Shown in pieces: positions 9,989 to 11,251 of a stretch of DNA of 64,000 bases. This DNA is from Roseivirga sp. (lineage in GTDB: Bacteria; Bacteroidota; Bacteroidia; Cytophagales; Cyclobacteriaceae). The notes beneath the pieces are model-generated. The model saw nothing but the letters and a program-made list of their open reading frames with translations, searched no databases and was not told the DNA's origin. The stretch is from the NCBI GenBank assembly GCA_018402485.1, contig JAGYIY010000003.1, positions 124,001 through 188,000 on the forward strand, in the 5' to 3' direction. Position numbers and translations under genes: made by a program. Each line of letters starts with the position of its first letter. Position 1 is the first letter of the stretch.

Positions 9989-10786
9989 TTAGGCAGGCTT
10001 TCTAAGTTCTTCGAAAACTGCATAAAAGATTCCTAAACCAAACAAGATGAGGGCCACAATTCCCAAGGAGTTGGTGGAACCTTCAAAAAGTAGGTTATAT
10101 AAACTAGCTCCCGCTGCCCCACCAATGATGGGTCCGATAATGGGAATCCAAGCATAGTTCCACTGCGAACTACCTTTGCCTTTGATAGGAAGTAAAAAGT
10201 GTGCTATTCGAGGTCCTAGATCACGTGCGGGATTAATGGCAAACCCGGTGGTTCCTCCTTGTGCCATACCTATGACCGTAATCAAGGCGCCCACTACCAA
10301 AGGATTTAGGCCTTCTGAAAACTCGTTGGCACCAATGGTTAAGAGACCCATGATTAGAATCATCGTTCCAAGCATTTCACTCAATAAGTTGGCGCTTTTA
10401 CGATTAATGGCTCCCGATGTACTGAATACAGCCAGTTTAGCGGCTGCATCATCTGTTTTGCCCCAGTGCGGTAAATATTGTAGCCAACACAACACGGCTC
10501 CTGTAAAAGCGCCTAATATTTGCGCAATAATGTATCCTGGAAGCAAGGTAATGTCCATTTCGCCTGTTAGGGCCAGAGAAGTAGAAACCGCCGGATTGAT
10601 ATGGGCACCGCTAATTTGACCTGCAGCATAAATACCAAAACTGACGGCCAAACCCCAACCGATACAAACAACGATCCAACCACCTCCTTTGGAATATGAA
10701 TGCTTTAGGTTTAAACCTGCGACTATGCCGTTGCCAAAAAATAATAACAAGGCGGTTCCTATGAATTCTGCAAGGTAAACTGACAT
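9989..10786 (-). CDS. Aquaporin / glycerol facilitator (MIP family)
   Basis: Membrane channel of 265 residues with six transmembrane segments and two half-helices. Both NPA boxes are present: GAHINPAVS in the first half and GFAINPARDLGPR in the second. The Asp directly after NPAR in the second box is characteristic of aquaglyceroporins such as GlpF (NPARDFGPK), so glycerol or a similar small solute is likelier than water alone. No glycerol kinase is nearby. An in-frame ATG at 10840 exists but lies against the 3' end of the SRP RNA gene. The start at 10786 (MSVYLAEFIGTALL) matches the usual N-terminus. Confidence 0.92.
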   Translation of the reverse strand: MSVYLAEFIGTALLLFFGNGIVAGLNLKHSYSKGGGWIVVCIGWGLAVSFGIYAAGQISGAHINPAVSTSLALTGEMDITLLPGYIIAQILGAFTGAVLCWLQYLPHWGKTDDAAAKLAVFSTSGAINRKSANLLSEMLGTMILIMGLLTIGANEFSEGLNPLVVGALITVIGMAQGGTTGFAINPARDLGPRIAHFLLPIKGKGSSQWNYAWIPIIGPIIGGAAGASLYNLLFEGSTNSLGIVALILFGLGIFYAVFEELRKPA

Positions 10787-10842
10787 GTGGAATAAATTTA
10801 CCGTGATGATACGATAAAAGAGGGGAATAAAAAAAGGCATCA

Positions 10843-10925
10843 GGATGTCGCACCGCTACAACCGCCTACCCTTGCTCTGTTCCCAGCCTGGGGGAGTTCA
10901 GCAGGAGCTGGTCGCATCCCTCTGC
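10843..10925 (-). ncRNA. ffs: Signal recognition particle RNA (4.5S-type, small bacterial SRP RNA)
   Basis: Read on the minus strand, the apical domain IV is textbook: CAGG (10890-10887), CUG (10886-10884), tetraloop GGAA (10883-10880), CAG (10879-10877), AGCA (10876-10873). The CAGG/AGCA symmetric loop is the site bound by the Ffh M domain. The outer helix closes with GGATG (10919-10915) pairing to CATCC (10847-10843), extended by CG and ACC/GGT pairs. A -7 element lies just upstream, and a run of six T (10836-10831 on the minus strand) follows the 3' end as a terminator. Ends are approximate to a few bases. It sits directly upstream of the aquaporin gene on the same strand. I recognised it from motif and structure, without a covariance-model search. 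Confidence 0.88.
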
Positions 10926-10932
10926 CGGAGGG

Positions 10933-10940
10933 CAAAGATA
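10933..10940 (-). promoter_or_regulatory. Putative -7 element for the SRP RNA gene
   Basis: TATCTTTG on the minus strand is an exact TAnnTTTG match. It would place the transcript start around 10928, within a short CCCTC/GAGGG hairpin preceding the main SRP RNA helix. Confidence 0.6.
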
Positions 10941-10999: not shown

Positions 11000-11251
11000 T
11001 CATTTTCGCTCGAAAAACTCCTTTTTGAGATAGAGGTTAAACTCTAGCGGGCTACTTTGCTGAAATTCATCCACTTTCAGGTCGTCAGCTATGTCTTCAT
11101 CATACTGGAGGTCGGTTTTTTCGACCTTTCCATCGGGGTGAATGATGAGTTCTGTTCCGCTGAAATCGATAGGATTCACAGCCACCAATACCTGATAATC
11201 ATCAAATACACGTTTATAGTAATTGTAAACAATAGCATCTTTTTTACCCAT
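11000..11251 (-). CDS. Small conserved protein, unknown function (83 aa)
   Basis: An 83-residue soluble protein that I do not recognise as a characterised family. It has alternating charged and aromatic residues (DAIVYNYYKRVFDDYQVLVAV), a probable beta-rich middle with HPDGK, and a Lys/Arg-rich end. No signal peptide or membrane segment. Its ATG shares one base with the stop of the PAP2 gene (sequence TAATG), indicating translational coupling and an operon hemF - PAP2 - this gene. That arrangement is the main evidence that it is real. Confidence 0.75.
   Translation of the reverse strand: MGKKDAIVYNYYKRVFDDYQVLVAVNPIDFSGTELIIHPDGKVEKTDLQYDEDIADDLKVDEFQQSSPLEFNLYLKKEFFERK

Follow-up and report, generated by a model that had tools for sequence, protein, structure and literature searches.

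The question raised by this locus is what is encoded by a short stretch of minus-strand DNA just upstream of an aquaporin gene in a Roseivirga-like member of the Bacteroidota. Judged by its sequence, it is almost certainly an ordinary housekeeping gene, that of a small bacterial SRP RNA (4.5S-like). The SRP delivers newly made membrane proteins to the membrane, and the binding of its RNA by Ffh and its part in targeting are established. The SRP RNA of the Bacteroidota is already known and is held in Rfam as family RF04183; the gene in the window (the whole 64-kb stretch of DNA that was analysed) is real but ordinary.

In an Rfam scan of the window, RF04183 (Bacteroidales_small_SRP) matches positions 10831-10934 of the minus strand with 70 bits against a cut-off of 55.2 (E-value 4.4e-12), and the match takes in the full length of the model (positions 1-107 of 107). 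Being full length, and with this E-value over 64 kb, it is far beyond chance. An earlier note, which had read a minus-strand SRP RNA from the letters alone, had proposed a search with RF00169 (Bacteria_small_SRP) as the check; this model is also matched whole (positions 1-97 of 97), at 10831-10928 of the minus strand, with 42.6 bits, which narrowly passes the cut-off of 40, and RF04183 is the better fit. The reading is therefore borne out by two covariance models, each above its cut-off. The tool suppressed one lower-scoring overlapping match from the same clan, no other Rfam family exceeds its cut-off in the 64 kb, and a match to TeloSII_ncR30, with 13.4 bits where the cut-off is 86, was put down to chance. 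ARAGORN found neither tRNA nor tmRNA genes in the window.

The likeness to RF04183 extends to the closing helix and the domain IV core, both of which are included in the full-length match, whereas the apical stem of the window RNA, CUG/CAG, sets it apart. RF00169, the E. coli 4.5S RNA type, resembles the window RNA in that the whole model is matched, and differs in that the score is barely above the cut-off. The transcript predicted by the earlier note (10928-10835) is consistent with the extent of the RF00169 match (10928-10831). The elements named in that note do lie in the span that it quoted, 10843-10940, but the 3′ end of the RNA reaches approximately 10831, beyond 10843, since both the T-tract and the outer GGCA/TGCC pairs are part of the RNA. 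The features of the locus are collected in Table 1.

Table 1. Positions of the features of the SRP RNA locus within the 64-kb window.
Feature	Positions	Strand	Basis and remarks
SRP RNA (4.5S-like), predicted transcript of ~98 nt	10831..10928	-	RF00169 and RF04183 matches; start predicted
Aquaporin (MIP family) gene, likely start ATG 10786, outside the RNA gene	9989..10786	-	PF00230, TIGR00861; start by comparison
Domain IV core CAGG-CUG-GGAA-CAG-AGCA	10873..10890	-	Sequence; apical pairs vary on both sides among relatives
Outer closing helix, 5′ arm GGCA	10923..10926	-	Pairs with TGCC 10836-10839; invariant in 18/18 genus loci
Outer closing helix, 3′ arm TGCC	10836..10839	-	Directly precedes T-tract
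Inner closing helix, 5′ arm GGGATG	10915..10920	-	Pairs with CATCCT 10842-10847; both-side changes across 57 sequences
Inner closing helix, 3′ arm CATCCT	10842..10847	-	Pairs with GGGATG 10915-10920
-7 promoter element TATCTTTG (fits TAnnTTTG)	10933..10940	-	Sequence; box in 18/18 genus loci
T-tract of presumed intrinsic terminator	10829..10835	-	Sequence; TGCCTTTTTTTAT identical in 18/18 genus loci
CCCTC/GAGGG complementarity	10918..10932	-	Rejected as functional hairpin

The domain IV motif of small bacterial SRP RNA consists of CAGG, a stem of three base pairs, a GGAA loop and AGCA. This pattern, which the earlier note had picked out in full, is present on the minus strand as CAGG (10890-10887), CTG (10886-10884), GGAA (10883-10880), CAG (10879-10877) and AGCA (10876-10873), and we take this core to be the Ffh-binding site together with the tetraloop. 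The GGATG/CATCC closing helix of that note is likewise there, within the slightly longer inner arms GGGATG and CATCCT. We rely on the covariance models and on comparison with relatives, since folding energy alone is weak: for a 99-nt stretch the z-score is -1.58, with 15 of 200 shuffles as good, and for 107 nt it is -0.77, with 41 of 200 as good. In the minimum-energy fold, the tip of the window RNA forms GCU/AGC around an 8-base loop, and not CUG/CAG around GGAA. For the reference structure we kept this fold and replaced the tip with CUG/CAG around GGAA, following the known form of domain IV.

RF04183 has matches in 55 of 59 genomes (that of the window included), above the cut-off in 54, and these yield 57 SRP genes, with two each in G028 and G056. 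All 57 were aligned and scored against the proposed structure of 31 pairs. Standard pairs occupy 92.5% of 1737 cells (shuffled mean, 82.2); changes on both sides occur at 19 of the 31 pairs (12.6 in shuffles) and in 207 cells (65.4 in shuffles), and none of 500 shuffles is as high as the observed pairing or covariation values. When the partners are slid by 1-3 columns, only 28.8-52.8% of cells are paired, although this control favours the proposed structure because the structure was derived from one of the aligned sequences. The three apical pairs all vary on both sides among the relatives, with 97.7% of their cells paired. In the long helix, 16 of 28 pairs have both-side changes, so that compensatory change is found in the closing helix as well. 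The outer GGCA/UGCC pairs are less uniform over the 57 sequences: unpaired cells number 20 and 22 in two of the four and 19 in a pair just inside them, at poorly paired positions near the RNA ends where the alignment is least certain.

The 18 sequences from the genus are nearly uninformative by themselves, with both-side changes at 2 pairs, since they vary too little; the domain IV core and the outer closing helix of the window are identical in all 18 loci. The CUG/CAG apical stem is found in all 18 and is absent from the remaining 39 aligned sequences, among which the commonest stems are UCC/GGA (13) and ACC/GGU (7). Across 395 genomes of the phylum, the exact domain IV pattern has 65 matches, one each in 65 genomes, and CUG/CAG is used in two of these, both from this genus; the pattern is strict, and failure to match it in the other 330 genomes is no evidence that they lack SRP RNA. 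We rejected the idea that the CUG/CAG stem is a novelty, as its loop-adjacent G-C pair (GGGAAC) occurs in 43 of the 65 exact matches.

The loop itself is GGAA in 52 of the 57 sequences. In the remaining five (L004, L005, L013, L015 and L016) it is UGAC (3) or UGAU (2); the loop-adjacent pair is mismatched in four of these, while L013 keeps a U-A pair. In G028 and G056, the two SRP RNA copies lie near each other, approximately 900 bases apart in locus L025 and approximately 340 bases apart in L063, and every copy has its own TAnnTTTG box.

The box in the window fits the -7 element consensus of the phylum, TAnnTTTG (PMC7366714, PMC9723704). It is the exact element that the earlier note had placed just upstream of the RNA, and a TAnnTTTG box lies 4-9 bases upstream of GGCA in all 18 genus loci that have the gene (6 bases in the window); by comparison, TAnnTTTG occurs in the window at 0.53 per kb per strand. 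No TTTG was seen by eye at the usual distance upstream of it. In Flavobacterium psychrophilum, the box is located at -12 to -5 (PMC9723704), and this spacing, applied to the window, would put the transcription start near 10928. At the other end, the T-tract that the note had claimed just downstream follows TGCC directly and is the same in all 18 genus loci, and the closing helix probably doubles as the terminator stem. A generic scan for promoters and terminators listed neither the SRP promoter nor the SRP terminator; its rules call for E. coli-type promoter hexamers and for terminator loops of 3-8 bases, whereas the stem of the presumed SRP terminator is formed by the ends of the whole RNA.

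The CCCTC/GAGGG hairpin that the earlier note had listed as an extra element at the 5′ side did not survive. The complementarity is there (CCCTC 10932-10928 with GAGGG 10922-10918, minus strand), but in the genus alignment only 39.3% of its cells are paired, and 493 of 500 shuffles are at least as high. The minimum-energy fold does not contain the hairpin, not even when the full stretch is folded, and the hairpin competes with the closing helix, to which part of the GAGGG arm belongs. In addition, its 5′ arm falls at approximately -4 to +1 of the predicted start, and with a start at 10928 all but one of the five CCCTC bases would be untranscribed.

The neighbour of the RNA gene is an aquaporin, as the note had said (PF00230, TIGR00861). 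Its longest open reading frame starts at ATG 10840, inside the 3′ end of the RNA gene, and the note's concern that gene callers might extend the aquaporin to this ATG was justified. Among the 16 genus members with the aquaporin neighbour, the window is the only one in which the frame is open from 10840; in the other 15, either the equivalent ATG is out of frame or a stop codon separates it from the aquaporin, and conservation of the protein sets in at the position that corresponds to 10786, where the window encodes MSVYLAEF. From these two observations, the aquaporin start is most likely 10786, and a start at 10840 is rejected.

Of the 18 genus loci with an SRP gene, 16 have the aquaporin downstream of it in the same orientation, at a distance of approximately 40-50 bases in 14 of them and approximately 125 in two (L061 and L064). 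The two other genus members, G005 and G011, have no aquaporin in the SRP-flanking stretch examined, and outside the genus none was found beside the SRP gene in the loci examined (approximately 1.5 kb on each side, less at contig ends). Three named Bacteroidota aquaporin loci carry an SRP gene just before the aquaporin, namely those of Roseivirga thermotolerans (NZ_BNAG01000003.1), a Cytophagia MAG (JABXIP010000082.1) and Roseivirga pacifica, the first two of which are probably the same as L047 and L048. In blastn comparisons, two Lactobacillaceae aquaporin loci and one from an Isoptericola MAG gave no SRP gene match.

The SRP gene is itself preceded, on its own strand, by an open reading frame of 83 amino acids (11000-11251, minus) with no Pfam or NCBIfam match at E 0.001. 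Relatives of it (tblastn) occupy the same position and strand in five loci from other genera of the family (L017, L020, L023, L025 and L030), so that it may be a conserved small protein that belongs to no Pfam or NCBIfam family.

The position of the RNA invites the idea that it acts in cis as the leader of the aquaporin mRNA, as a riboswitch-like element or an attenuator, and merely resembles SRP RNA, and upstream placement on the same strand in 16 of 18 genus loci is what speaks for it. We find this scarcely credible: two covariance models match above their cut-offs, the aquaporin is not beside the SRP gene in the non-genus loci examined, nor in G005 and G011, and no other SRP RNA was found in the genome, which is 84.56% complete (G000; 2,572,905 bases in 17 contigs). 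In that genome, RF04183 has one match (150 of 156 first-look candidates scored), RF00169 has one (all 102 candidates scored), and R1, a model built from the 57 aligned SRP genes, has one with 135.7 bits (150 of 447 candidates scored), a score that is not independent because the window sequence is among the 57. The earlier note had named the lack of a model match, or a better match elsewhere in the genome, as grounds against its reading, and within the 84.56% complete genome neither was encountered.

The same single matches bear on whether this is a decayed or duplicate copy, with the working gene elsewhere, as might be imagined from the paired copies of G028 and G056 and from the part of the genome that is missing, where a second copy could lie. 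Against this, the domain IV core, the outer closing helix and the T-tract are identical in all 18 genus loci, which also retain the promoter box, and we regard a defunct or spare copy as very improbable. The protein partners expected of a housekeeping SRP RNA are encoded in the same genome: Ffh (TIGR00959, 605.2 bits against 473.2) and FtsY (TIGR00064, 358 bits against 260.7).

Four of the 59 genomes (G007, G023, G043 and G049) have no SRP RNA match with RF04183, none with RF00169 at E 0.1 (for G007 and G023, among the part of the first-look candidates that was scored) and none with R1 at E 1. G007 belongs to the same genus, and it also lacks a match to the aquaporin and, in a search run without a positive control, to the coproporphyrinogen oxidase of the locus, which suggests that the SRP stretch may be missing from the assembly. 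The other three are 93-98% complete and may have a divergent SRP RNA gene or an assembly gap; in G023, the aquaporin is present, with no SRP match within 1.5 kb beside it. Pattern matches with one mismatch (in G007, in G023 and one of two in G018) fail to preserve the apical stem and loop, and we set them aside as chance.

Elsewhere in the phylum, SRP RNA was one of four known RNAs detected in the transcriptome of Flavobacterium psychrophilum, and is thus expressed there (available part of PMC9723704); this species is of the same phylum and another lineage, and the likeness is at the level of RNA type rather than of compared sequences. SRP RNA is also annotated in Porphyromonas gingivalis, according to the accessible part of PMC5771137. 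The available portion of PMC6429828 has nothing on SRP RNA in Bacteroidetes, and the main text of PMC7366714, as far as it is available, does not mention SRP or 4.5S RNA. Our literature search found no paper on Roseivirga SRP RNA, and none by domain IV terms.

As a housekeeping SRP RNA gene, the stretch would be transcribed from the TAnnTTTG promoter, starting near 10928 and ending in the T-tract after 10836. The RNA would fold as one long hairpin with domain IV, and the motif bound by Ffh, at its tip; the Ffh-RNA particle would then recognise signal sequences of nascent membrane proteins and dock through FtsY. Ffh binding and targeting are ascribed to the window RNA here by analogy with established SRP knowledge. 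The kept order of SRP RNA and aquaporin might arise if termination at the SRP T-tract is leaky and feeds aquaporin transcription, an explanation we think unlikely; if true, it would couple a membrane-channel gene to how much the SRP RNA promoter delivers. A domain IV motif reading from sequence alone correctly picked out a housekeeping RNA gene, and the analysis supplies the boundaries of that gene for annotation along with a corrected aquaporin start, while knowledge of the SRP itself is unchanged.
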